A stretch of DNA of 44,743 nucleotides, taken from the IMG/VR virus record IMGVR_UViG_3300042934_000692, positions 1 to 44,743 of that record, one strand, 5' to 3'. The DNA is from a virus. The notes beneath the pieces are model-generated. The model ran no database searches. It had not been told where the DNA came from and saw only the letters and a program-made list of their open reading frames with translations. Position 1 is the stretch's first letter; every line of letters begins with the position of its first letter. A program made the position numbers and the translations under genes. This document shows, one piece after another, positions 10,377 through 38,050 of this stretch.

Positions 10377-10577
10377 TCAGGCCCGCAAGGGGTCGGCGCT
10401 GCGGGCCTCGCGCTGGATGAACTCGAGGCGCCCCCGCAGCGCGCGCACGCCGCCGGAGGCGCCCGGCGCGGGGTCCATGTCCCGCTCGTGATCCGTGATG
10501 AACCCGAGCACGGCCGCCCACTGCACATCCGTCAGGCGGGCGTCCAAAAGCTGTTGCGTCGCGTCGGGTCGATGCAT
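10377..10577 (-). CDS. Small reversed gene inside the lysis region, unknown function
   Basis: 66 residues. The gene runs against its neighbours and has its own signals: an AAGGAGG site nine bases before the ATG and a perfect TATAAT at 10614-10609. It fills the gap between the amidase and the next plus-strand gene. The product is polar and helical, with no motif I recognise. An independent promoter in reverse orientation suggests expression from the prophage. Confidence 0.65.
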   Translation of the reverse strand: MHRPDATQQLLDARLTDVQWAAVLGFITDHERDMDPAPGASGGVRALRGRLEFIQREARSADPLRA

Positions 10578-10608
10578 GGCGCTGTCCCTCCTTCGGCTCT
10601 ACGAGCCA

Positions 10609-10614
10609 ATTATA
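10609..10614 (-). promoter_or_regulatory. Consensus -10 element for the reversed gene
   Basis: The minus strand reads TGC-TATAAT, an extended -10 element, 32 bases before the ATG at 10577. No good -35 hexamer is visible. The downstream bases (TTGG) resemble those at 14627 and 28455, which share TATAATTG. Confidence 0.65.
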
Positions 10615-10629
10615 GCACAGGAGTTTACA

Positions 10630-11052
10630 ATGCTTAACACCCTTCTAGCAGGCGCCGGCCAGTTCGTGGTCGAGCAGGTGATGGCCTTCGGCCTGGTGGC
10701 GGCCCTGGCCGCCGTGGGCGGCTTCGCGCTCGGCTACCTGCTCAAGCAGCGGCCCGACCTCAAAGACGAGATGCAGGTGGTGGCGGACCACTCGGAAGCA
10801 ATCGAGGCCTTCGCTACCCGCGTCTCCGTGATCGCCGCCGAGAAATTCGGCATCGAGGCGAACAAGTTCGGCTACGACAAGTTCAAGTTCGCGGCCGACG
10901 TGACCCAGGCCGCCCTGGCCTCGGTGAACATCAAGGGCGACCCGAGCCGGGTCAACTGGAACGAGACCTACAAGGCGATCCGAGAAACCGCCGCGCGACT
11001 CTTTCCGGTGCACTCGAAGAAGCCGACCGCCGGCGGTGACCTCCCCCTCTAG
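10630..11052 (+). CDS. Holin-like single-span membrane protein (LLH-type pattern)
   Basis: 140 residues; AGGAG six bases before the ATG. Residues about 18-40 are one membrane segment (AFGLVAALAAVGGFALGYLL). The rest is soluble and contains repeated A-A-E-K-F-G / K-F-G-Y-D-K-F-K-F patterns similar to the phage LLH holin family. It ends the lysis cassette, just before a palindromic terminator. A second pore or pinholin-type component is the likeliest role; an anchored phage protein of another kind is possible. Confidence 0.62.
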   Translation: MLNTLLAGAGQFVVEQVMAFGLVAALAAVGGFALGYLLKQRPDLKDEMQVVADHSEAIEAFATRVSVIAAEKFGIEANKFGYDKFKFAADVTQAALASVNIKGDPSRVNWNETYKAIRETAARLFPVHSKKPTAGGDLPL

Positions 11053-11063
11053 CCTATGAAGCC

Positions 11064-11106
11064 GATGCCCCTCTGTCTCCAATTGGAGACAGAGGGGCAT
11101 CTTTTT
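11064..11106 (+). terminator. 38-bp perfect palindrome plus T-run, containing GTCTCCAATTGGAGAC
   Basis: Bases 11064-11101 are a perfect 19+19 inverted repeat, followed by TTTTT at 11102-11106. It terminates the lysis operon. Its centre (11075-11090) is one of four copies of the same 16-bp palindrome in this genome. Confidence 0.88.
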
Positions 11107-11129
11107 GGTTTCGGCCATATGTCTGAACC

Positions 11130-11166
11130 GTTAGTCAAAAGGGCAGAATGATCCCGTACAACTAAC
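11130..11166. other. Candidate phage attachment site (attP)
   Basis: An imperfect inverted repeat with arms GTTAGT-N5-GGG and CCC-N5-ACTAAC surrounds nine central bases (11144-11152). It overlaps the last codons of the serine integrase gene and lies between that gene and the lysis region, where a temperate phage is expected to open. Serine integrase sites are about 40-50 bp with such arms. No host sequence is available to confirm it. Confidence 0.45.
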
Positions 11167-12721
11167 CCTTCCTGCTATGAATCCACGTTCCCTCGAGCAG
11201 TTGAAGCTTCGCCACGCGGACGTTCCAGCGGCGACGGTCGGCGGGATCGCGCCCGTTGCGCACGAGATGTGCCTGCGCCACGATGGATTCGAAGAGCTCC
11301 CGAAGCTCGAGGTCATCGTCGGATTCATTATAGCCCTCGAGCGCGTCGATGATGTGCTCCATGTTGGCGAGGTGACGATCGACGGCAGCTGGCGATCGCT
11401 CGCGCTCCTTGGCGGCTACCTGCCCCTTGGCGGCCTCGATGTCGCGGGCCAGGTTCCTTAGGGTGAAGTCTACCTCGCTGCGCTCCAGTTCGCCCAAGGC
11501 GATCTTCATGACGATGCCCTCGCGGGCGCGCTCGAGTTCAGCGATTCGCAAACGCAGGGGCGCGGCCTCATCCACCTCCGGCGCGGCGCCCGCGTCTTCT
11601 GCCTGCAGCGACAGGACGCGCTGGCGGTCCAGGTGTCGGGGCAACTCTCGCTTGAGGAAGCGCAGCACCTGCGCGTGCGCCTGGGCCGCCCAGTAGGATG
11701 TGGGAGCCGTGCACCGGCCGGGGTAGGAGTCGTTGGTCTGGCAACGGTAGCGTCCGGCGCCGATGTGAATGAATCCCATGCGGCCGTCGCAGCCGTTGCA
11801 CCGCAAGATGCCGGAGAGCGGGTGAGGCGTGCCGGGGCCATGGCGCCGGCGGTGCTGCTTGCGCGCCGCGATCTCGTCCTGAACCTTCTCCCACAACTCG
11901 AGCGGGACGATCGGCGGGAAGGCCGTGGACGTCGCCGTGATGATGGGGCCGCTCTTTACGTCGTTGGGCCGGTTGATGGGCTTTCTGAACACGGCGATGC
12001 CTGCGTAGATGGAGTTGCGCAGCATATAGCGCACGGCGGGCTTCGACCAGGTGCCGCTGCGTGGCGCAGGGAAGCCCTCGGCCTGCAGCCATGTAGCGAT
12101 GTCCTTGGGCCCCTCTCCGGCCAGGTAGACCTCGAACATGCGTCGTACTGCCGCGGCTTGTCCGGGATCGATCTCGAAACTGCGTTCGCCGGTCGTCGGG
12201 TCGAACACGACCCGGTAGCCGAAAGGCGCCGCGTGGCCGGTCCACTTCCCGGCCTTGGCTGACGCCTCCCGGGCAGCGAGCGTGCGCTCCCGGATCTTGA
12301 GCCGCTCGAACTTCGACACCGTCGCGCGCATGTCGGTCCAGAGCTCAGAGTCGGCTTTGCCGTCCAAGGGGACGTGTCCCATGTCCACGGTGAAGAGCCT
12401 GCAGCCGACACGTCGTAGATCCGCCTTCACTTGCTCGAACTCGCCGATCTGCTCGGTGCGCGTGAGGCGGTCGAAAGTGGCCACCAGGATGGCGTTGGCC
12501 TCACCTTCCCTCACCATCTCGAGCATGCGCTGGAATACGGGCCGCTCCTTGGCGCCGCTCATCGCCTCCTCGAGCACGTCAACAACGGTCATGTCGTGTC
12601 GACGTGCCAGATCCACGAGGGCGGCGCGCTGGCGAGGAATCGAGTCCCAGTCGTCCCGCTTCTTGTTGCCGCGCACGTCCGACACCCGGCAGTAGAGAAC
12701 GGCGCGCAGGGGCTGAGTCAT
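11162..12721 (-). CDS. int: Large serine integrase
   Basis: 519 residues. The resolvase catalytic domain is at about 5-150 with the nucleophile Ser14 in Y-C-R-V-S and later arginines of the R-L-T-R-T and E-R-x-x-I-R-E-R type. A recombinase domain (about 165-270), a zinc ribbon (C-N-G-C with later Cys pair, about 305-345) and a coiled-coil (about 390-450) follow. The ATG overlaps the stop of a 51-residue gene upstream (ATGA). It would join attP and the host attB during lysogeny. The promoter of this operon, at 13400-13428, carries a LexA-like box. Confidence 0.96.
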   Translation of the reverse strand: MTQPLRAVLYCRVSDVRGNKKRDDWDSIPRQRAALVDLARRHDMTVVDVLEEAMSGAKERPVFQRMLEMVREGEANAILVATFDRLTRTEQIGEFEQVKADLRRVGCRLFTVDMGHVPLDGKADSELWTDMRATVSKFERLKIRERTLAAREASAKAGKWTGHAAPFGYRVVFDPTTGERSFEIDPGQAAAVRRMFEVYLAGEGPKDIATWLQAEGFPAPRSGTWSKPAVRYMLRNSIYAGIAVFRKPINRPNDVKSGPIITATSTAFPPIVPLELWEKVQDEIAARKQHRRRHGPGTPHPLSGILRCNGCDGRMGFIHIGAGRYRCQTNDSYPGRCTAPTSYWAAQAHAQVLRFLKRELPRHLDRQRVLSLQAEDAGAAPEVDEAAPLRLRIAELERAREGIVMKIALGELERSEVDFTLRNLARDIEAAKGQVAAKERERSPAAVDRHLANMEHIIDALEGYNESDDDLELRELFESIVAQAHLVRNGRDPADRRRWNVRVAKLQLLEGTWIHSRKG

Positions 12722-13708: not shown

Positions 13709-13831
13709 ACGGCGCGGTGCGGGCTGAAACGCCCCCTGGTCATCCTTAACAGGTCGGCCGAGGAGTTACCTCGGACTCAGCGCCACCAATTTCAGAGTAA
13801 GCCCAGGGTTTCGGCCCTGGGCTTACTTGTT
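13709..13831 (+). ncRNA. Probable structured small RNA, cloverleaf-like, ending in a 13-bp hairpin
   Basis: Downstream of a promoter at 13674-13702, the RNA would fold into an outer stem (13711-13715 with 13780-13784) enclosing three hairpins: 13721-13734, 13735-13753 and 13758-13774 (six pairs, five-base loop). The outer stem is followed by ACCA (13785-13788), so the element has the size and outline of a tRNA. It lacks a T-loop consensus. It ends at a perfect 13-bp hairpin (13796-13827) that also covers the stop codon of the opposing DUF3800 gene. No reading frame explains it. Function is unknown. Confidence 0.55.
13796..13831. terminator. 13-bp hairpin between small RNA and DUF3800 gene
   Basis: Arms 13796-13808 and 13815-13827 pair perfectly around a TTTCGG loop. 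The plus side is followed by TTGTT, the minus side has no T-run. It probably ends the plus-strand small RNA and may also stop the converging DUF3800 transcript, whose TAA (13825-13823) lies in the stem. Confidence 0.65.
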
Positions 13832-14620
13832 GGGGAATTTGACGACCCCATAGCCGTCAATCCGGCCAGTTGGCGAGCAGCGGAACATCGGCAGGATGGT
13901 CTCAAAATACTCGTACTTTGGGGACCGGCAGCCAGTTCGCTGAAAGCTGGAAACGTCCGGGTAAACACGGAACTGGCGCATGACGTTGTAGGCGCAGAGG
14001 TCAGCCATCTGCAAGAGCGCATGGTGATGAGAGCCGCCAAATCGTACCCAGGGCGCAACGCGGTCCAGGCGCATCCTTCCGATGAAGCGAGAGCCGTTCT
14101 TCACCAGCTGGGCGTGCTGAGCCTCGAGCAGCTTTCGGTGAGGGTTGCCTTTGGGGGTGACGCCCATCATGTCGTCCATGTAGACCTCACCCCTCAGTAC
14201 CTTGCGATCCTTGAGCATGTACTGATAGCGCTGCATCAGGAATTCATAGGCGGTAGCACTCGCGTAATTCGCATTGGCGCCGTACGCCTTTGTCATCCTG
14301 TGCTTGTCGACGACGGACGCAAGAAGGACGACGGGCTGCTTGGGCAACCACCTGTAGAAGGCTCGACTAAAGGTGTCGACATCGTTGGGGTGGAGTCCGT
14401 ACTTCCTGACGTAGCGCTTCTCGATCTCGTTTGGGCGCCTGATCCAGTTCGACTTTATCTCTGGCTCGGCGCTGCCTAGGATCATCTCCTTCAGTTCGTT
14501 GAAGGAGTCGATGACATGCTGCTCATTTTCCTTGGATACGGCCACGCCGCAGTAGGCGAAAAACCTACTGGTATTCTCGCCGTATTCCTTCTCGCCTGTG
14601 TCGTCAATCCAAAGTCTCAT
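13823..14620 (-). CDS. DUF3800 family protein
   Basis: 265 residues. The family signature is clear: an N-terminal L-W-I-D-D-T-G motif (residues 3-9), E-I-K-S-N near 55, Y-M-D-D-M near 150 and L-L-Q-M-A-D-L-C-A-Y near 210. These acidic residues fit the RNase H-like fold proposed for the family. DUF3800 genes are frequent in prophages and defence islands; biochemical function is not established. The ATG follows a TATAAT by only six bases, so the mRNA is probably leaderless. Its 3' end meets a structured small RNA coming from the other strand. Confidence 0.85.
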   Translation of the reverse strand: MRLWIDDTGEKEYGENTSRFFAYCGVAVSKENEQHVIDSFNELKEMILGSAEPEIKSNWIRRPNEIEKRYVRKYGLHPNDVDTFSRAFYRWLPKQPVVLLASVVDKHRMTKAYGANANYASATAYEFLMQRYQYMLKDRKVLRGEVYMDDMMGVTPKGNPHRKLLEAQHAQLVKNGSRFIGRMRLDRVAPWVRFGGSHHHALLQMADLCAYNVMRQFRVYPDVSSFQRTGCRSPKYEYFETILPMFRCSPTGRIDGYGVVKFPNK

Positions 14621-15195: not shown

Positions 15196-15390
15196 CTACT
15201 CCCCGCCCATCGCCTTCAGGTGCACCTGGGGGTACTTGAGCATCAGCTCGTACGCGGCCACCATCGGGTTCAGGTCGATCACCTTCCCACACCCTCCGCA
15301 CGCCACCGGCGCGAGCGCCTTCATCTCGGCCTCAAGGACCTCGAGCGGCGCAGCGCAGTAGGGGCAGGAGAGGGTGATCGGAGCGGTCAC
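15196..15390 (-). CDS. Small zinc-ribbon protein, last gene of the repressor operon
   Basis: 64 residues from GTG 15390, five bases after the lipoprotein stop. Two Cys pairs (C-P-Y-C near residue 9 and C-G-G-C near 32) form a zinc ribbon; the C-terminal half is helical. No clear ribosome site, so it is probably translated by coupling. It resembles general phage zinc-ribbon proteins, and its role is unknown. Confidence 0.65.
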   Translation of the reverse strand: MTAPITLSCPYCAAPLEVLEAEMKALAPVACGGCGKVIDLNPMVAAYELMLKYPQVHLKAMGGE

Positions 15391-15395
15391 GGGCG

Positions 15396-15689
15396 CTACT
15401 TCAGGCCCGACTGGCTCTTGGAGACGAGCTTTCCACCGCGGAACTGCCCGATCATGTTGGTCCCGTCGCCATTCTCCCAGCGGTACTGCGCCGTAACGAC
15501 ACCATCGAATTCCTGCTTGGACAACTCCTTGCCCTCCTTGCCCATTGCTGCGACCACTTCCTCGTAGGTCATCCCGACCTGCACTCGGTCGTAGGCCGCC
15601 AGGGTGATGGTCGAGATCGTTGGCGCCGCGCACCCTGCGACCGGCGCGATGAAGATCAGCGAGGCGACCAGTAGAAACGCGAAACGCAT
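15396..15689 (-). CDS. Lipoprotein with BamE/SmpA-like (DUF3862-type) domain, expressed with the repressor
   Basis: 97 residues from ATG 15689, directly after GGAGGAAAG. A lipoprotein signal (hydrophobic core, lipobox V-A-G-C with Cys20) is followed by a small domain with Y-D-R-V-Q-V-G-M-T-Y-E-E-V-V and Y-R-W-E-N-G-D-G, as in SmpA/OmlA and DUF3862 proteins. Some phage lipoproteins made from prophages block receptors or DNA entry. Co-transcription with the repressor suggests such a surface role here; that is inference. Confidence 0.78.
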   Translation of the reverse strand: MRFAFLLVASLIFIAPVAGCAAPTISTITLAAYDRVQVGMTYEEVVAAMGKEGKELSKQEFDGVVTAQYRWENGDGTNMIGQFRGGKLVSKSQSGLK

Positions 15690-15699
15690 CTTTCCTCCG

Positions 15700-16248
15700 C
15701 TACTTGAATAGGTCATCGAGTTCAGGAATCACGGGTTGGGCATGGCAGCGGCAGCCGTCGCGCTCGCCGGGGTGCCCGCCCTTCGGTGGCTTGTCCCACC
15801 GAAACCTCTTCCCGTTGAGCTTCTTGCACTCTTCGCTCTCGCGAGCGTCCATGACGGCACTCCACTCGTAGCGCTCGATGCCCTGCGCCTCGTGGCGAAT
15901 CTGTGTCATCTTGGCCTGCAACTTTATAATCTGGCCGCTGGCGATTTCCGTGCCAGCCTTGATTGTCGTGAGGCCAAAGATCTCTTTGAACTCACGACCC
16001 AGTTCGCGCACGCTTCTCCCGGTCCGCATCGCCGAAAACGCCTTCTCGGCGATTTCAGCCTCGTTGGCCGCCGTGACACCGGGGATCTTCCGTGCGTTCA
16101 CAAGCGCTACCTCGCGAAGGATCGGGACCAGATGAGGTTCAGACGAGAACACGTCCACGCTTAACGACTGGCGCGGCGGGGCATCGGATGTGCTCGTGGG
16201 GTCCTCCGCCTTGGACGCGCCGAACAGCGACTTCAGGAAGCCAAACAT
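15700..16248 (-). CDS. Free-standing MuF head-morphogenesis domain, paralogue of the phage's own minor head protein
   Basis: 182 residues; the ATG overlaps the repressor stop (ATGA). Residues 29-182 align along their whole length with residues 113-276 of the structural minor head protein at 37220-38050: both start with L-x-V-D-V-x-x-S-E-P, share M-T-x-x-R and Y-E-W-S-x-V-x-D-x-R, and end with WDKPP, G-G-H-P-G-E, C-R-C, A-Q-P-V-I-P-E and D-D-L-F. The structural protein's first 112 residues are replaced by 28 others. The copy keeps the usual D-x-R-x-S-x-x-C-x-x-L-N-G motif. A role in blocking head assembly or DNA entry of related phages is my inference. Confidence 0.88.
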   Translation of the reverse strand: MFGFLKSLFGASKAEDPTSTSDAPPRQSLSVDVFSSEPHLVPILREVALVNARKIPGVTAANEAEIAEKAFSAMRTGRSVRELGREFKEIFGLTTIKAGTEIASGQIIKLQAKMTQIRHEAQGIERYEWSAVMDARESEECKKLNGKRFRWDKPPKGGHPGERDGCRCHAQPVIPELDDLFK

Positions 16249-16802
16249 CAGCCAGACCCCTTCTCACTGCCCACGTCGTTGTCCTCATCCCATTCCCTCT
16301 CGGCCTGGCGCAGCTCCGGCAAGCGCTTCGCGGGCGGGTACTGCCAAAGCGGCGAGTTCGAGCGGGGGTCCAGTTCCGAGCCGTCGAAGCCACCGATCTT
16401 CTCGAGCAGCTTCAGCTCCTTCTCCGTCGGCGGATGCTTCATCCCGGCCGGCAGCTCGGCGAGCACCTGGGCGATCGCGTCGGAGGTCTCCTTGCGCTTG
16501 GGCCCGGCGGGCGCGGCGCCCTCTATGGCTTCCGGCACCCAGCGCTTGATGCGCTCGAGGCCCTCAACGCCGATCCGATCGAGGTCGCGCCACGCCTGTA
16601 ACTGCTCGAGCGTGACCCCCAGCTCGGGCATGGCGGCCAAGGCTTCGAGGTTTGCGTCGGAAGGTGCGCGTCGGCCCTTCTCGATCGCAACAAAGAGGGA
16701 GCTGGGAATGCTGGTCACCTGACAAATCAGGTAGCCGCTAACTCCTTTCGCCTCTCTGTGAAGCCTCAACTTGTCACCAAAAACGCCCATGCGTCCAAGC
16801 AT
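16248..16802 (-). CDS. Lysogeny repressor candidate (XRE-type HTH)
   Basis: 184 residues. I choose ATG 16802, preceded by GCGAGGG; a second ATG lies at 16790. Residues about 6-65 form a Cro/C1-type helix-turn-helix (GDKLRLHREAKGVSGYL, then SIPSSLFVAIEKGRR). The rest is helical and acidic, without an obvious S24 peptidase domain, so RecA-driven self-cleavage is not indicated. It is divergent from the Cro-like gene across a region with repeated TTGTTA half-sites. It heads an operon with the MuF copy, a lipoprotein and a zinc ribbon. Confidence 0.78.
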   Translation of the reverse strand: MLGRMGVFGDKLRLHREAKGVSGYLICQVTSIPSSLFVAIEKGRRAPSDANLEALAAMPELGVTLEQLQAWRDLDRIGVEGLERIKRWVPEAIEGAAPAGPKRKETSDAIAQVLAELPAGMKHPPTEKELKLLEKIGGFDGSELDPRSNSPLWQYPPAKRLPELRQAEREWDEDNDVGSEKGSG

Positions 16803-16814
16803 ATCAGCCCTCGC

Positions 16815-16900
16815 AAAAATTGTTATCGCACATGTATTGACCGCTAACAAAAACTGTGCGTTAATAGGTGACGAACAAATCTTGTTCGCTAACAATGGAG
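16815..16900. promoter_or_regulatory. Divergent lysis-lysogeny switch: two overlapping promoters and operators
   Basis: Leftward: TTGTTA (16850-16845), 17 bases, GATAAC (16827-16822). Rightward: TTGACC (16837-16842), 17 bases, GTTAAT (16860-16865). The two overlap. Half-sites TTGTTA lie at 16820-16825 (plus), 16850-16845 and 16895-16890 (minus), the inner two flanked by GCG. A perfect CGAACAA-ATC-TTGTTCG palindrome lies at 16872-16888, just before the Cro-like gene's ribosome site. These are likely operators for the two HTH proteins. Confidence 0.72.
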
Positions 16901-16908
16901 GTCAGCCA

Positions 16909-17109
16909 ATGCGCAGCTTGAAGAAGATACGCGAGGCCAAAGGTCACACCCAAGAACAAATGGCTCAGCGCTTCGGCGTCTCCGTGATGACCTGGCGTCG
17001 TTATGAGCAGGGCAAGACCGAGCCCACCTGGGAGAAGGCGGAGGCCATCGCGGATTACCTCGGCGTCACCCTCGACGAAATTGCCGGGCGCGCTCAAGCG
17101 GCCTGCTAA
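16909..17109 (+). CDS. Cro-like HTH regulator
   Basis: 66 residues from ATG 16909, with GGAGG seven bases before. Almost the whole protein is an XRE helix-turn-helix (REAKGHTQEQMAQRFGVSVM, W-R-R-Y-E-Q-G-K-T-E-P). It is divergent from the repressor and opens the rightward early operon. By position and size it is the Cro counterpart. Confidence 0.87.
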   Translation: MRSLKKIREAKGHTQEQMAQRFGVSVMTWRRYEQGKTEPTWEKAEAIADYLGVTLDEIAGRAQAAC

Positions 17110-24239: not shown

Positions 24240-25091
24240 ATGAGCGAAAAGATTCAGAGCTTCCTCGAGCACCTGATGGTCGAGCGCGGCCTGGCCGGCA
24301 ACACCATCTCGGCCTACAACACCGACCTGACCCGCCTGGAATCCTACCTGACGACGATGCGCCTCGAGTGGGACGACGTGACCCCGGCTGTGCTGGTCGG
24401 CTACCAGCAGCTCGGCGAGCGTGACGGCCTGCGCCGCGCGACGCTCAACCGCCGATTGGCCTGCTTCAAGGGCTTCTTCTGGTGGCTGAAGACGACGGGG
24501 GCGATCGCCGCCGACCCGGCCGCCGGCCTGACACGGGCTCGCGAGCAGCGCAGCATCCCGGAAGCTCTCACCGAGGCTCAGGCCCGCCGGCTCCTCGACC
24601 ACCCGACCATCCCGGTTCGCGAGCGGGCGATCCTCGAATTGCTCTACGGCGCCGCGCTTCGCGTCAGCGAGTTGGCCCGGGTGAACGTGGCCGACTTCGA
24701 CCCGTACCAGGGGACGCTGCGCATCCGCCCGGAGGCGGGCCGCGAGCGGCTCGTGCATCTGCCGGAGGAGGCGGTGAACGCGGTGAAGGTCTACCTGACC
24801 CAGGATCGCCCCTACATCCGGCACCTGCCCAGCGAGCGGGCGATGTTCCTGAACTACACCGGCCGGCGGATGTCCCGCCAGTGCGTCTGGAAGACGGTCA
24901 AAGACGCGGCCCACGCCGCCGGCTTCTCCGGTTCCATCGGGCCGAACACCCTCCGCCAGTCGTGCGCGGTGAACCTGCTCGACAAGGGCGTGGACGTGCG
25001 CACGGTCCAGGAGATGCTCGGGCACTCCGACCTGAACACCACGCTCATCTACACCCGCACGCGGCGGCGCCGCGAGCAGCTGGCGGCATAG
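24240..25091 (+). CDS. Tyrosine recombinase 1 (XerC/D-like) lacking two conserved catalytic residues
   Basis: 283 residues with AAGGAG before the ATG. The SAM-like N-terminal domain is at about 1-95 and the catalytic domain at 108-283. Arg141 (A-A-L-R-V-S-E-L), Arg239, His262 (L-G-H-S-D) and the nucleophile Tyr271 (L-I-Y-T) are present. The usual HxxR is N236-T-L-R239, so the first His is Asn. The usual G-K-G lysine is missing (P-E-A-G-R-E-R). Cleavage could be weak or need a partner. It is one of three Xer-type genes here. Confidence 0.9.
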   Translation: MSEKIQSFLEHLMVERGLAGNTISAYNTDLTRLESYLTTMRLEWDDVTPAVLVGYQQLGERDGLRRATLNRRLACFKGFFWWLKTTGAIAADPAAGLTRAREQRSIPEALTEAQARRLLDHPTIPVRERAILELLYGAALRVSELARVNVADFDPYQGTLRIRPEAGRERLVHLPEEAVNAVKVYLTQDRPYIRHLPSERAMFLNYTGRRMSRQCVWKTVKDAAHAAGFSGSIGPNTLRQSCAVNLLDKGVDVRTVQEMLGHSDLNTTLIYTRTRRRREQLAA

Positions 25092-30182: not shown

Positions 30183-31157
30183 ATGAGAACCAAGAACCAG
30201 GCTGCGCCCAGCGCGCAGCTCGCTTTCGCGTGGGCGCCGGATGCGCCCGCCCCCGCTCTGGCGTCTGCCCCGGTTGCGGTGGCGCCGCCGACACCCCCTC
30301 CCGGGCCGCCGGTGCCCGACCCCATCGAAGCCTACCTCGAGCGGTGCAAGCTCAAGGGATTCTCGGCCCACACGGTGCGCAGCTACCGGACGGACCTCAC
30401 CAAGGCCCTCGCCCACTGCGGGCCGCTGCTCGAGGCGACAGAGCGTCAGGTCGAGGCCTTCATTCAGGCCGAGACGCGCCGCGGCCTGCACCCGGGCACG
30501 GTGGGGCGCCGGCTCAACACCCTGCGCAGCTTCTACAAGGACGCCCGCCGGCAGCGCCTGCTCGTCGACGATCCCACGCTGGCCGTGGACCCGCCGAAGA
30601 AGCCCAAGCGGCTGCCGAAGTACCTCAAGGACCACGAGGTGGCGGCGATGATGGGCGCCCTGCGCAGCGAGACCAGGATGGACCTCAGGGAGGCGGCCAT
30701 CGTGCTCACCTTCTACCACACTGGGATGCGCCTGGCCGAGGCGTGCCGGCTCAACGTAGGCGACGTGGTGGGCGCGGACGTGCGCGTGTTCGGCAAGGGC
30801 TCGAAGGAGCGGGAGATCCCCGTCAACCAGCAGCTGCGCGCCGCGCTCGATGCCTGGCTCGCCGTGCACCCCGGCGGTGATGCCCTCTTCTGCTCGCTGG
30901 GTGATCACCCCGGCCGGCTCTCGCCTGAGCACGTGCGCGAGACGGTGAAGGCGGTATTCAAGCGTGCCGGCCTGGCCGCCAAGCGCTACACCCCGCACAA
31001 GCTCCGGCACACCTTCGCCACCCGGTTGATCAACAACGGCGTGCGCATCGACATCATCCAGCGCCTGCTGGGTCACTCGGGCATCAACACCACGATGCTA
31101 TATTCTCACACCGAGTTCGGGGACGGCCTGCGCGCTGACCTGAACCGCATCCTGTAA
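30183..31157 (+). CDS. Tyrosine recombinase 2 (XerC/D-like), catalytic set complete
   Basis: 324 residues with AAGGAG before the ATG. A Pro/Ala-rich N-terminal extension (about 1-45) precedes the SAM-like domain (46-135) and the catalytic domain. The active site is intact: Arg183, Lys205 (F-G-K-G-S-K-E-R), His272 and Arg275 (T-P-H-K-L-R-H), His298 and Tyr307 (M-L-Y-S-H). It is more similar to recombinase 3 than to recombinase 1. With a serine integrase present, it is probably not the integrase; dimer resolution or an inversion switch is possible. Confidence 0.93.
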   Translation: MRTKNQAAPSAQLAFAWAPDAPAPALASAPVAVAPPTPPPGPPVPDPIEAYLERCKLKGFSAHTVRSYRTDLTKALAHCGPLLEATERQVEAFIQAETRRGLHPGTVGRRLNTLRSFYKDARRQRLLVDDPTLAVDPPKKPKRLPKYLKDHEVAAMMGALRSETRMDLREAAIVLTFYHTGMRLAEACRLNVGDVVGADVRVFGKGSKEREIPVNQQLRAALDAWLAVHPGGDALFCSLGDHPGRLSPEHVRETVKAVFKRAGLAAKRYTPHKLRHTFATRLINNGVRIDIIQRLLGHSGINTTMLYSHTEFGDGLRADLNRIL

Positions 31158-32617: not shown

Positions 32618-32853
32618 TGAACGGAAACCTCGTCTACTTCTTCAGCCCGGCTCAGTACGCGGCTGTGCAGCAGATCGTCGGCAACCAGATGGACCTGGCG
32701 CCCCAGCGCACCCGCCTCGCTCTCCGCAATGAGCTTGGAGAAGAAGGCGCCGACCGCTTCTTGGAGCAGTTGGGCCTGGGTGACTGGGTGGAAGGTCCCG
32801 ACCCCTCCGCCGAACTGGTCGCAAACCTCGTCGCCACGCCTTACCAGCAATAA
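32617..32853 (+). CDS. 78-residue protein, unknown
   Basis: Starts on the previous stop (TGATGA). Contains F-F-S-P-A-Q-Y-A-A-V-Q-Q-I-V and a helical centre. It precedes recombinase 3. Function unknown. Confidence 0.6.
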   Translation: MNGNLVYFFSPAQYAAVQQIVGNQMDLAPQRTRLALRNELGEEGADRFLEQLGLGDWVEGPDPSAELVANLVATPYQQ

Positions 32854-32890
32854 CATACGTTCTCTCTCCCAACCCCGGAGGCCCGCACCA

Positions 32891-33748
32891 ATGGCCGATT
32901 TGGTGGAAGACTACCTAAACCGGCTCACTGTGCGCAACTTCAGCGAGGCCACGATCAAGGCATACCGCCAGGATCTGACCCACGCCCAGGCCTTCATCGG
33001 CCGGCCGCTGGTGGAGGCGAAGGAGGCGGACCTCGAGCGCTACATGGCCAGCCTTCACCGGGCCGGCCTCAAGCCGGGGACGATCCGCCGGCGCCAGGCG
33101 AGCCTGCGCGGTTTCTTCGACCACGCCCGCCGCCGCAAGAAGATCAAGGTGAAGCCCACCGACAATCTCGAGGCCCCGAAGATGGAGGACCGCGTGCCGG
33201 TCCACATGGCCGGCGGCCAGGTCGAGCGCCTCAAAGGCGTGCTGGGCGGCGACGGCGTCACCGACCGGCGCGACGCGGCGATCGTCCTCTGCCTCTACTA
33301 CACGGGGATGCGCTCGGGCGAGCTCGTCACCCTCACTCTCGAGGACATCGACCTCGACGAGCGCGAACTGGTGGTGATGGGCAAGGGCAAGAAGGAGCGC
33401 CGGCTCCCGATCGCTGTCCCCCTCGTGCAGGCCTTGCGCCGCTGGCTCGAGGTCCACCCGACCGGCGACGGTCACCTCTTCGTCGGCGCGCGCTACCCCC
33501 ACGCCCCGCTCGAGTACCAGGGCGTGCGCAAGGTGGTCGGCGCTGCGATGGAGCGAGCCGGGCTCAAGGGCCGCCGGTTCACGCCCCACAAGCTGCGCCA
33601 CACGTTCGCCACCGGCCTCCTCGCCAAGAAGATGCCCATCGACAAGATCCAGAAGCTGCTCGGCCACAGCCGCATCGAGACGACCACCATCTACGCTCAC
33701 ACCCAGCTCGAGCAGAGCCTGAGCGACGAGATTGGTGATGCCCTCTGA
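32891..33748 (+). CDS. Tyrosine recombinase 3 (XerC/D-like), catalytic set complete
   Basis: 285 residues from ATG 32891, with CGGAGG before it. SAM-like domain 1-90, catalytic domain from about 105. Residues Arg141 (T-G-M-R-S-G-E-L), Lys165 (M-G-K-G-K-K-E-R), His233 and Arg236 (T-P-H-K-L-R-H), His259 and Tyr268 (T-I-Y-A-H) are all present. It is the last early gene before packaging. Its closeness to recombinase 2 suggests a duplicated or paired XerC/XerD-like function; the target site is unknown. Confidence 0.93.
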   Translation: MADLVEDYLNRLTVRNFSEATIKAYRQDLTHAQAFIGRPLVEAKEADLERYMASLHRAGLKPGTIRRRQASLRGFFDHARRRKKIKVKPTDNLEAPKMEDRVPVHMAGGQVERLKGVLGGDGVTDRRDAAIVLCLYYTGMRSGELVTLTLEDIDLDERELVVMGKGKKERRLPIAVPLVQALRRWLEVHPTGDGHLFVGARYPHAPLEYQGVRKVVGAAMERAGLKGRRFTPHKLRHTFATGLLAKKMPIDKIQKLLGHSRIETTTIYAHTQLEQSLSDEIGDAL

Positions 33749-35928: not shown

Positions 35929-37266
35929 GTGGGCTTCTTCAAGCGCTTTGACGGCTGGTCCGACCTGCTGACCGGGTTCGGCACCAGCCGCGACAAGAGC
36001 CAGGCCGGCGACTACACCCCGAACGTCGGCGTCAGCATGGCGCAGGCCGAGGAGCTCTACGCGGGCGACGCGATCGCCGCACGCATCATCGACGTGCCGG
36101 TGGGCGACATGACCCGCGAGGGCATCGAGTTCAAGACGGACGATTCCAAGGTTGAGGAGGCCGTCTCCCAGGCGCTTCGTGACCTCGAGCTGCTGGCCGT
36201 CTACGCGGACGCCGAGCGCGACGCGCGAATCTACGGCGGCTCGCTGCTCATCCTCGGCGTGAACGACGGCCAGCAGCCCGACCTGCCCATCGACGAGACC
36301 CGCATCCAGGTGGTGCGCTTCGTCGAGTCGGTCGACCGCTACTCGGTGAGCGTCCTCAAGCGCTTCTCCGACCCGCAGTCCAAGGAGTACGGCCAGCCCG
36401 AGGTCTACGGCATCATCAAGGACGACGGCACTACAGTGCAGGTGCACGCCTCGCGCACCTGCCGCCTCCTCGGCGTGCCGCTGCCGAAGCGCCTGGCCGT
36501 CCGCGAGGACGGGTGGGGTCAGCCGGTCTTCAAGCGATACTGGAACGCCCTCCGGGGCTACCACGCCGCCCACAACGCGGCCGGCCACATCCTCTCCGAA
36601 TTCATCATCGGCATCTACCGCCTCGACGGCCTGGCTTCGGCCCTGGCATCGGGCGGCACCGATGGCGCCAAGAGCATCCTCGCCCGCTTCTCCATCATGG
36701 ACGCGGCCAAGGGCCTCTACCGGGCGATCATCCTCGACCGGGAGGAGCAATTCGAGCGCAACAGCGCGAACGTGAGCGGCCTGTCCGACCTGGTGACCGC
36801 GGCCGAGCGCCGGCTGGTCGCCGAGACGGGCATCCCCCACTCCCTGCTGCTGGGCGAGTCCCCCGGGGCGAGCCTGGGCGAGCAGGGCGCGGCGCAGCAA
36901 GCCAACTGGTACGACGTGGTCGCTGCCCAGCAAGAAGCCAGGATGCGCCCGGCCCTCGAGCGCATCACCCGCCTCCTCCTCCTCTCCAAAGAGGGGCCGA
37001 CGGGTGGCAAGGAGCCCGACACCTGGAAGCTCGAGTTCCGGCCCCTGTGGCAGATGGACGCGAAAGAGCAGGCCGAGATCCGCAAGCTCACGGCCGAGGC
37101 CGACGTGCTCTACATCGGCGCCGGGGTTCTGATCGGTGACGAAGTGGCCGAGGCTCGCTTCGGCCCCGAGGGCTGGTCGGCTGACTTGACGCTCGACTTC
37201 GAGGCAAGGGAGGCACCTGATGTTCCTGCTGGGGAAACCGAACCGCCGCCGGGGCAAGCCGCCTAG
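35929..37266 (+). CDS. Portal protein (DUF1073 type)
   Basis: 445 residues from GTG 35929, with GGGAGG just before. DUF1073 pattern: Y-A-G-D-A-I-A-A-R-I-I-D-V-P, A-R-I-Y-G-G-S-L-L-I-L-G, and G-I-P-x-x-L-L-L-G-E-S-P-G. The twelve-fold portal would form the DNA channel at the head vertex and bind terminase and the MuF protein. It overlaps the next gene by 47 bases. Confidence 0.92.
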   Translation: MGFFKRFDGWSDLLTGFGTSRDKSQAGDYTPNVGVSMAQAEELYAGDAIAARIIDVPVGDMTREGIEFKTDDSKVEEAVSQALRDLELLAVYADAERDARIYGGSLLILGVNDGQQPDLPIDETRIQVVRFVESVDRYSVSVLKRFSDPQSKEYGQPEVYGIIKDDGTTVQVHASRTCRLLGVPLPKRLAVREDGWGQPVFKRYWNALRGYHAAHNAAGHILSEFIIGIYRLDGLASALASGGTDGAKSILARFSIMDAAKGLYRAIILDREEQFERNSANVSGLSDLVTAAERRLVAETGIPHSLLLGESPGASLGEQGAAQQANWYDVVAAQQEARMRPALERITRLLLLSKEGPTGGKEPDTWKLEFRPLWQMDAKEQAEIRKLTAEADVLYIGAGVLIGDEVAEARFGPEGWSADLTLDFEAREAPDVPAGETEPPPGQAA

Positions 37267-38050
37267 GCCCATCCCGCCGCGCGGCATCGAGGTGAGCTAC
37301 ACCCGCTTCCTGCTCGACCTGGTCGACACCCTCGATCGCCTCATCGACGAGATGGTGCGCCCGGCCGCCGTGGCCGAGCTTTCGCGCGTGCGCACCGACG
37401 CCTGGGGCGATGACCTCGAGCTGCTGGTGCAGGACGTGCTGGTGCGCTTCGGCGTGCTGGTGCCGGCCGAGAGCATCCGCAGCCGGGTGACGACCGCCGG
37501 GCGCCAGGTGGCCAACCACACCGGCAACGAACTGGGCCGGATGGTCAAGTCGGTGCTGGGCGTCGACGTGCTGCAGTCCGAGCCGTGGCTCGAGGATGAG
37601 CTGGCATCGTTCCGGCGCGAGAACGTCGCGCTGATCAAGGACCTGACCGAGACGCACCTGCGCCGCATCGAGCAGCTCCTGGCCGACGGCGTGCGCCGGG
37701 GGGATGGCTGGAAGGCGATCGCCGCCGAACTTCAGCGCCAGACCGGCATCACCAAGAACCGCGCCAAGCTGATCGCCGTCGACCAGGTCGGCAAGGCCCA
37801 GGGGCGCATGACCGAACTGCGGCAGCGCGGGCTCGGCATCAACGAGTACGAGTGGTCGACCGTGAAGGACAGCCGCGTGCGCGGCCGGCCCGGCGGTGCC
37901 TGGCCCGACTCGCACCCCTCCCACTGGGCGCGCGAGGGCAAGACGTTCAGCTGGGACAAGCCGCCCGAGGGCGGGCACCCCGGCGAGGCCATCCGCTGCC
38001 GCTGCATCGCGCAGCCCGTGATCCCCGAGATTGACGACCTGTTCACCTGA
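37220..38050 (+). CDS. Minor head protein, MuF/SPP1 gp7 type
   Basis: 276 residues; GGGAGG precedes the ATG inside the portal gene end. The first 112 residues are basic and helical. The MuF domain spans about 113-276 and ends in W-D-K-P-P, G-G-H-P-G-E, C-R-C and P-E-I-D-D-L-F. In SPP1 the equivalent protein binds the portal and affects DNA ejection. The usual first Cys of the C-terminal motif is absent here (D-S-R-V-R-G-R instead). A shortened paralogue is encoded in the repressor operon (15700-16248). Confidence 0.9.
   Translation: MFLLGKPNRRRGKPPRPIPPRGIEVSYTRFLLDLVDTLDRLIDEMVRPAAVAELSRVRTDAWGDDLELLVQDVLVRFGVLVPAESIRSRVTTAGRQVANHTGNELGRMVKSVLGVDVLQSEPWLEDELASFRRENVALIKDLTETHLRRIEQLLADGVRRGDGWKAIAAELQRQTGITKNRAKLIAVDQVGKAQGRMTELRQRGLGINEYEWSTVKDSRVRGRPGGAWPDSHPSHWAREGKTFSWDKPPEGGHPGEAIRCRCIAQPVIPEIDDLFT

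Follow-up and report, generated by a model that had tools for sequence, protein, structure and literature searches.

A second MuF-domain protein encoded directly behind a phage repressor, a possible head-derived interference protein

The window analyzed here covers positions 1 to 44,743 of the viral record IMGVR_UViG_3300042934_000692 of IMG/VR. On its minus strand lies a unit of four genes encoding, in this order, a helix-turn-helix (HTH) repressor, a protein with a MuF head-morphogenesis domain, a lipoprotein and a zinc-ribbon-like protein, followed by a terminator-like element. The repressor gene (16248..16802) was matched by the Pfam model HTH_31 at 28.8 bits when scanned from position 16808, and its start is most likely at 16802 (MLGRMGVF, behind GAGGG) and not at the mechanically assigned TTG at 16895. 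The MuF gene (15700..16248, minus strand, 182 amino acids) follows directly; the repressor stop TGA and the MuF ATG share one base (TGATG), which replaces the ATGA overlap given in the sequence-only reading of this locus, and the Shine-Dalgarno-like sequence AGAAGGGG lies upstream of the ATG. The third gene (15396..15689, minus strand) starts 10 nucleotides past the MuF stop, behind GGAGG, and encodes a DUF3862/BLIP-like lipoprotein with a signal peptide and a VAGC lipobox; scanned from 15716, it gave weak Pfam matches to BLIP and DUF3862 and was assigned to phrog_6148 (category moron), and it has homologs in Paenibacillus phages, one of them near the integrase of Paenibacillus phage Jacopo. 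The last gene (15196..15390, minus strand, 64 amino acids) was called as encoding a small CxxC zinc-ribbon-like protein from weak zinc-ribbon Pfam matches and its position ahead of the terminator. The terminator-like element itself was found by a consensus scan on the minus strand (GGGGCCGCGCGGCCCC-TTTTT, from 15177 to 15162) and has six GC pairs in the stem and five T; since chance matches are common (mean 3.2 per region shuffle), this call rests mainly on position.

Upstream of the repressor a divergent control region (16803..16908) contains repeated half-sites resembling TTGTTAGCG as well as a palindrome, CGAACAA-gat-TTGTTCG (inverted repeat I1), and it is followed on the plus strand by a Cro-like HTH gene (16909..17109; HTH_31 58.2 bits, HTH_3 55.7 bits). 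A large serine recombinase (11162..12721, minus strand, translation read by eye), weakly matching the serine recombinase of the kin phage G025, is the presumed integrase and as such marks the lysogeny region. Between it and the repressor operon a DUF3800 protein is encoded (13823-14620, 53 bits), likely a further accessory gene of this region, and three XerC/D-like tyrosine recombinase genes are found elsewhere in the window (24240-25091, 30183-31157, 32729-33748). Co-transcription of the MuF gene with the repressor, which had been stated as a fact in the sequence-only reading, is suggested by the anatomy of the unit, namely the stop/start overlap, the Shine-Dalgarno-like sequence, the short gap, the terminator and the absence of a minus-strand promoter-like match from the scanned region. 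Given this apparent repressor operon, the serine recombinase and the divergent repressor and Cro-like genes, it would be a natural prediction that the second MuF protein is co-expressed with the repressor in the lysogen.

The protein encoded at 15700-16248 is, as had been claimed from the sequence, a genuine second MuF protein of this phage. It scored 58.1 bits against the Pfam model Phage_Mu_F (PF04233; curated cut-off 29.6 bits), and BLASTP aligned its residues 29-181 to residues 113-275 of the phage's own head protein with 64 of 164 positions identical (39%, E 8e-33). That head MuF protein (37220..38050, plus strand, 276 amino acids, tail IAQPVIPEIDDLFT) scored 64.6 bits with PF04233, likewise above the cut-off, and was assigned to phrog_324 (head morphogenesis); next to it lies the gene of the portal protein (35929..37266, plus strand, PF06381 258.6 bits), its presumed partner. 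No third MuF match was present in the record. The alignment of the two proteins had been described as nearly without gaps, which is slightly generous since it contains 12 gap columns, nearly all of which, however, form a single 11-residue loop present in the head copy only. The N-terminal part of the head MuF is indeed replaced: the second MuF begins with a new segment (residues 1-28), continues with the MuF domain (about residues 33-170) including the zinc hairpin, and ends with the C-terminal tail HAQPVIPELDDLFK, 14 residues past the CRC motif. In PHROG it matched head-and-packaging or unknown families only. Structure prediction with AlphaFold2, suggested along with the profile search as a check of the original claim, gave a confident fold (mean pLDDT 86.3; block means of at least 88 over residues 31-180), and Foldseek matched the model to viral minor capsid and head morphogenesis proteins; in the PDB no MuF relative was found by sequence or fold, and Foldseek returned nothing significant there.

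With head MuF proteins (SPP1 gp7, Mu gpF; PF04233) the second MuF shares the domain, the fold class, the zinc hairpin and the type of tail, whereas it differs from them in lacking the N-terminal part, in the loss of near-invariant residues, and in lying in a repressor operon and not beside the portal gene, which is 20 kb away and adjoins the other MuF gene. MuF polymorphic toxins resemble it in having a MuF domain, in occurring in temperate phages and in their proposed role in competition, but they are head genes with C-terminal toxin domains and the second MuF has neither feature (Jamet et al., 2017; PMC5576092); no toxin domain or other extra domain was found in it with Pfam and PHROG. Judged from its sequence and context, it is a member of the MuF family, yet neither a head MuF nor a MuF toxin. 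A toxin-immunity pair formed by the MuF protein and the lipoprotein was considered and set aside because the former has no toxin domain.

Phages with more than one muf gene were described as "rare exceptions" in a survey of 614 muf genes in 611 phages (Jamet et al., PMC5576092). Searching INPHARED with the second MuF gave matches at 790 places in 790 records; the matches listed were head, minor capsid or unnamed genes, none of them above 60% identity, and beyond head genes and distant matches no close relative was found in INPHARED, IMG/VR, PLSDB or GTDB. About 128 distinct IMG/VR records, picked by head-gene similarity, were checked for every MuF, and only one besides the window, G004 (IMGVR_UViG_3300017649_000012), contained a MuF outside a head module; a 90 kb record, G006, also has two MuFs, the second of which lies in its own terminase-portal-MuF module. 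The extra MuF of G004 (L170, 9731-10510, minus strand, PF04233 34.4 bits) begins 3 nucleotides past the stop of an HTH_3 repressor (10514-10924), and an HTH-like ORF without a Pfam match lies divergently at 11022-11249. The search for HTH-MuF pairs in other phages proposed in the sequence-only reading thus yielded one more case. Its MuF sequence is very different from that of the window, and the repressors of the two phages belong to different families. The G004 pair recurs in two further assemblies, with an identical MuF in one and a 96% identical MuF in the other; the two versions show 13 changes in 186 synonymous sites and 10 in 549 non-synonymous sites, the latter being fewer than expected (p 0.0014), which points to purifying selection. 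When PF04233 was run over about 1,050 proteobacterial genomes, the listed parts of 38 regions with low-scoring matches or short frames (a few of them incomplete or without an ORF) contained no further repressor-linked case. The repressor-MuF layout is rare, with two independent cases.

Conservation was assessed in an alignment of 145 other distinct head MuFs and the window head protein, in which 42 positions were conserved at 85% or more. Both repressor-linked copies are without the N-terminal part of head MuFs and retain the zinc hairpin. From G146 through the CRC motif to A170 all conserved positions are retained in the window copy and all but one (R to K) in the G004 copy. The putative metal site (hairpin H/C, GHPG, CRC) is complete in the window copy, with C141, H159, C166 and C168 present; the ligand at 141 is C in place of H, a substitution that six head proteins share. 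Both copies have, however, lost L54, R97, D105, N111, Q119 and R138 (window numbering), which lie in the helical part and the loop; the window copy carries K97, G105 and S138. D105, the D of the DQxGKxN helix, is present in 97% of head copies and is G in the window copy and A in the G004 copy, neither of which occurs there in any head protein. With 8 and 13 losses among 35 positions, six in common are more than expected by chance (p 0.019), the loss at N111 counting less because the window's own head protein also has Q there. The last 14-18 residues of each copy resemble the own head protein: among 237 head tails, the one that the window tail HAQPVIPELDDLFK matched most closely was its own, IAQPVIPEIDDLFT (score 60, against a mean of 24.7 with sd 11), and the G004 tail WAEPRLPLLEDLDALIVH ranked its own head tail WAEPELPQLEDLDALIVH third of 237. 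A kept hairpin and own-type tail together with shed head-specific residues would fit a copy that is competent for binding and deficient in function in the virion. The same losses speak against an extra virion component, that is, a MuF made in lysogeny that would enter virions upon induction and reach the next host with them. MuF proteins are portal-bound parts of the virion, and injection is assumed for MuF-toxin fusions (PMC5576092), but the near-invariant head residues are gone from both copies, there is no toxin domain and the gene belongs to a transcription unit unsuited to packaging, which makes this the least probable of the explanations considered.

The ends of the proteins also bear on whether the protein could be held at the inner membrane, there catching the incoming MuF/portal complex or DNA and so blocking genome entry. 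The N-terminal segment MFGFLKSLFGASK of the window copy is hydrophobic, with a low-confidence predicted helix, in the G004 copy an amphipathic helix lies at the C-terminus, the next gene of the operon encodes a lipoprotein, and stand-alone MuF proteins with transmembrane starts exist (L144 and L148, one being homologous to a protein of Klebsiella phage Mulock). For the N-terminal segment, however, the hydrophobic moment is ordinary (0.33), soluble phage proteins have similar starts, and it is different ends that are hydrophobic or amphipathic in the two copies, and we regard such tethering as unlikely.

In the phylogenetic tree both repressor-linked MuFs stand on long branches and fall into separate clades of head proteins: the window copy is the neighbor of its own head protein (support 87/83, branch 1.53), and the G004 copy lies within the clade to which its own head protein belongs (branch 2.14; support 86/81 with a clade member). 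Because both the repressors and the head clades differ, the layout most likely arose twice. The window copy likely stems from the phage's own head gene, although in a tree built without the tail it could not be placed (branch 2.87), so that this paralogy is not certain; with the core of the protein, the own head protein ranked 121 of 237 and other head proteins scored higher, in part because of the 11-residue loop. The C-terminal blocks of the two genes share 72-75% nucleotide identity, which was suggestive at first of a recent duplication or gene conversion. Shared codons at identical residues (20 observed, 22.8 expected from codon usage) led us to reject such a recent event, which is also disfavored by third-position GC content (GC3; 0.78 in the second MuF gene, 0.95 in the head gene). 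The long branch, the lower GC3 and the rarity among kin phages could also be read as marks of neutral or decaying cargo (a moron), a piece of a head gene that came to lie behind the repressor by chance and persists there. An intact ORF with a ribosome-binding site, all metal ligands and a confident fold, the recurrence of the layout in the independent phage G004 and the purifying selection on the copy there all argue against decay, leaving neutral cargo a rather improbable explanation.

The kin phages, taken as those closest by portal and tail proteins, have repressors in a similar place with other cargo behind them. In G025 a repressor homologous to that of the window (E 1.7e-15) is followed by a membrane protein and then by the serine recombinase, and in G370 an HTH repressor gene overlaps a gene for a signal-peptide protein; a single-protein search gave no relative of the window repressor, the one in G025 being found via this kin phage. 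The position next to the repressor thus looks like a variable slot for genes that would be expressed in lysogeny. This variability bears on a regulatory role, in which the MuF paralog would target the repressor or the circuit around it. It might, for instance, bind the MuF or portal proteins of a phage that is entering or being induced, and in this way adjust the repressor or the choice between lysis and lysogeny. That the gene is translationally coupled to the repressor in both phages would suit such a partner, and according to one proposal MuF proteins accompany the DNA into the cell (PMC5576092), where an internal partner could sense them. Cargo of one kind is nevertheless paired with two repressor families, the repressor occurs in kin phages without the MuF, and regulation of transcription by a MuF protein is not known, so a regulatory function appears improbable as well.

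We tentatively favor, while giving it somewhat less than even odds, the reading that the second MuF is a head-derived interference protein expressed in lysogeny against phages with related head modules. The protein would derive from a head morphogenesis gene, its N-terminal part gone, and would be made by the dormant prophage along with the repressor. The zinc hairpin and the own-type C-terminal tail are probably the parts by which a head MuF docks to its virion partners; with these presumed binding parts kept and near-invariant head residues lost, the second MuF could fill the low-copy MuF site on the portals or procapsids of an invading phage, whose heads would then assemble or eject badly. 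Induction would shut off the repressor promoter and hence the second MuF, sparing the phage's own assembly, and this tie to the repressor promoter could remove the competitor without any anti-protein. In SPP1, gp7 is a strong portal binder of which few copies enter the procapsid, and it aids the start of infection (PMC6316719); at such a low copy number a modest amount of competitor could matter. SPP1 without gp7 nevertheless assembles normally, and about 25% of its virions are infectious (PMC6316719), so that blocking MuF function alone may be a mild or weak defense. Also counting against interference, homoimmune phages are already stopped by the repressor, the layout is rare, and the descent of the window copy from the own head gene is not certain. 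Counting in its favor, besides the anatomy of the operon, the only other non-head MuF in about 128 records also lies directly behind an HTH repressor, probably has a separate origin and shows purifying selection; both copies have lost the same near-invariant residues and kept the zinc hairpin and own-type tails, and the variable cargo in the slot of kin phages, the portal binding of gp7 and a known assembly blocker, Tab, lend it some plausibility. The superinfection exclusion originally proposed from the sequence is thus supported in part, in its premises, namely a real second MuF, an apparent repressor operon, the same layout in an independent phage and the pattern of kept and lost features.

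That no described system has this layout, as the sequence-only reading also stated, agrees with the literature found, which took in little from subscription journals and described no repressor-linked paralog of a virion protein; a related principle is, however, known from Pseudomonas phage JBD26, whose prophage protein Tab (tail assembly blocker) stops virions from being assembled (PMC10884400). According to the accessible text of that paper, Tab is prophage-encoded, made constitutively in the lysogen and aimed at a low-copy structural protein, the tape measure protein, for which the same low-copy argument is made, and its prophage must avoid self-inhibition; by analogy the second MuF would share these properties. 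In that text Tab is encoded between the terminase genes, has its own promoter, is paired with an anti-Tab and is not described as a paralog of a virion protein, whereas the second MuF is a head-protein paralog behind a repressor and no anti-protein was seen. Judged by its position and MuF fold, it differs from the Tab type. PADLOC returned no match for the MuF, lipoprotein, zinc-ribbon and DUF3800 proteins and generic HTH-type matches only for the repressor.

A principle of this kind operates in the mouse, where Fv1, a virus-derived restriction factor, is a captured capsid-module protein that blocks related viruses; the viruses and hosts differ, and restriction by the second MuF is putative. 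Under a broader and more doubtful proposal, portal-associated head proteins would have been co-opted more than once in temperate phages, a copy of the protein being expressed in lysogeny as a restriction factor, in a phage parallel to the Fv1 type of virus-derived immunity. Such cases would be recognized by repressor-MuF operons, loss of head-specific residues and an own-type docking tail. If interference is the correct reading, prophage immunity would have recruited a protein of the virion, and superinfection exclusion would target the head module in place of the receptor, the DNA or the repressor. The MuF domain, which is poorly understood, would gain a testable binding role for its hairpin and tail, two muf genes in one phage, a rare condition, would in some cases be explained, and repressor-linked paralogs of virion genes would provide a simple search rule for new defense genes.

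The MuF zinc-hairpin motif was also observed outside head modules, between host genes, at L124, L135, L141, L143, L146, L168, L169, L285, L286, L288, L289, L295 and L298, mostly in alphaproteobacterial genomes, and in an unannotated frame across the origin of plasmid pTB4 (L087, 5437-6318). These hairpins are fused to varied domains and often adjoin a signal-peptide or membrane protein, and the proteins look like effectors with no obvious tie to a prophage. Small membrane-anchored MuF-hairpin proteins were seen inside the tail module of a Pantoea stewartii prophage (L144, 5758-6195) and in a related setting in the tail module of Klebsiella phage Mulock (L194, 4432-4878), both genes lying directly 3' of a gene for a small signal-peptide or membrane protein. 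Very short stand-alone MuF-hairpin proteins of 91 amino acids (L182, 5826-6101, in a genome of the order of Achromobacter) and of 205 amino acids with hydrophobic transmembrane-like segments at the start (L148, 2149-2766, in Desulfovibrionaceae) were also found. Several head MuF genes of related phages, including L042 (3533-5359), L077 (1351-3300) and L032 (3662-5251), have long C-terminal extensions (frames of 500-670 amino acids) and are candidates for MuF-fused effectors in proteobacterial phages.
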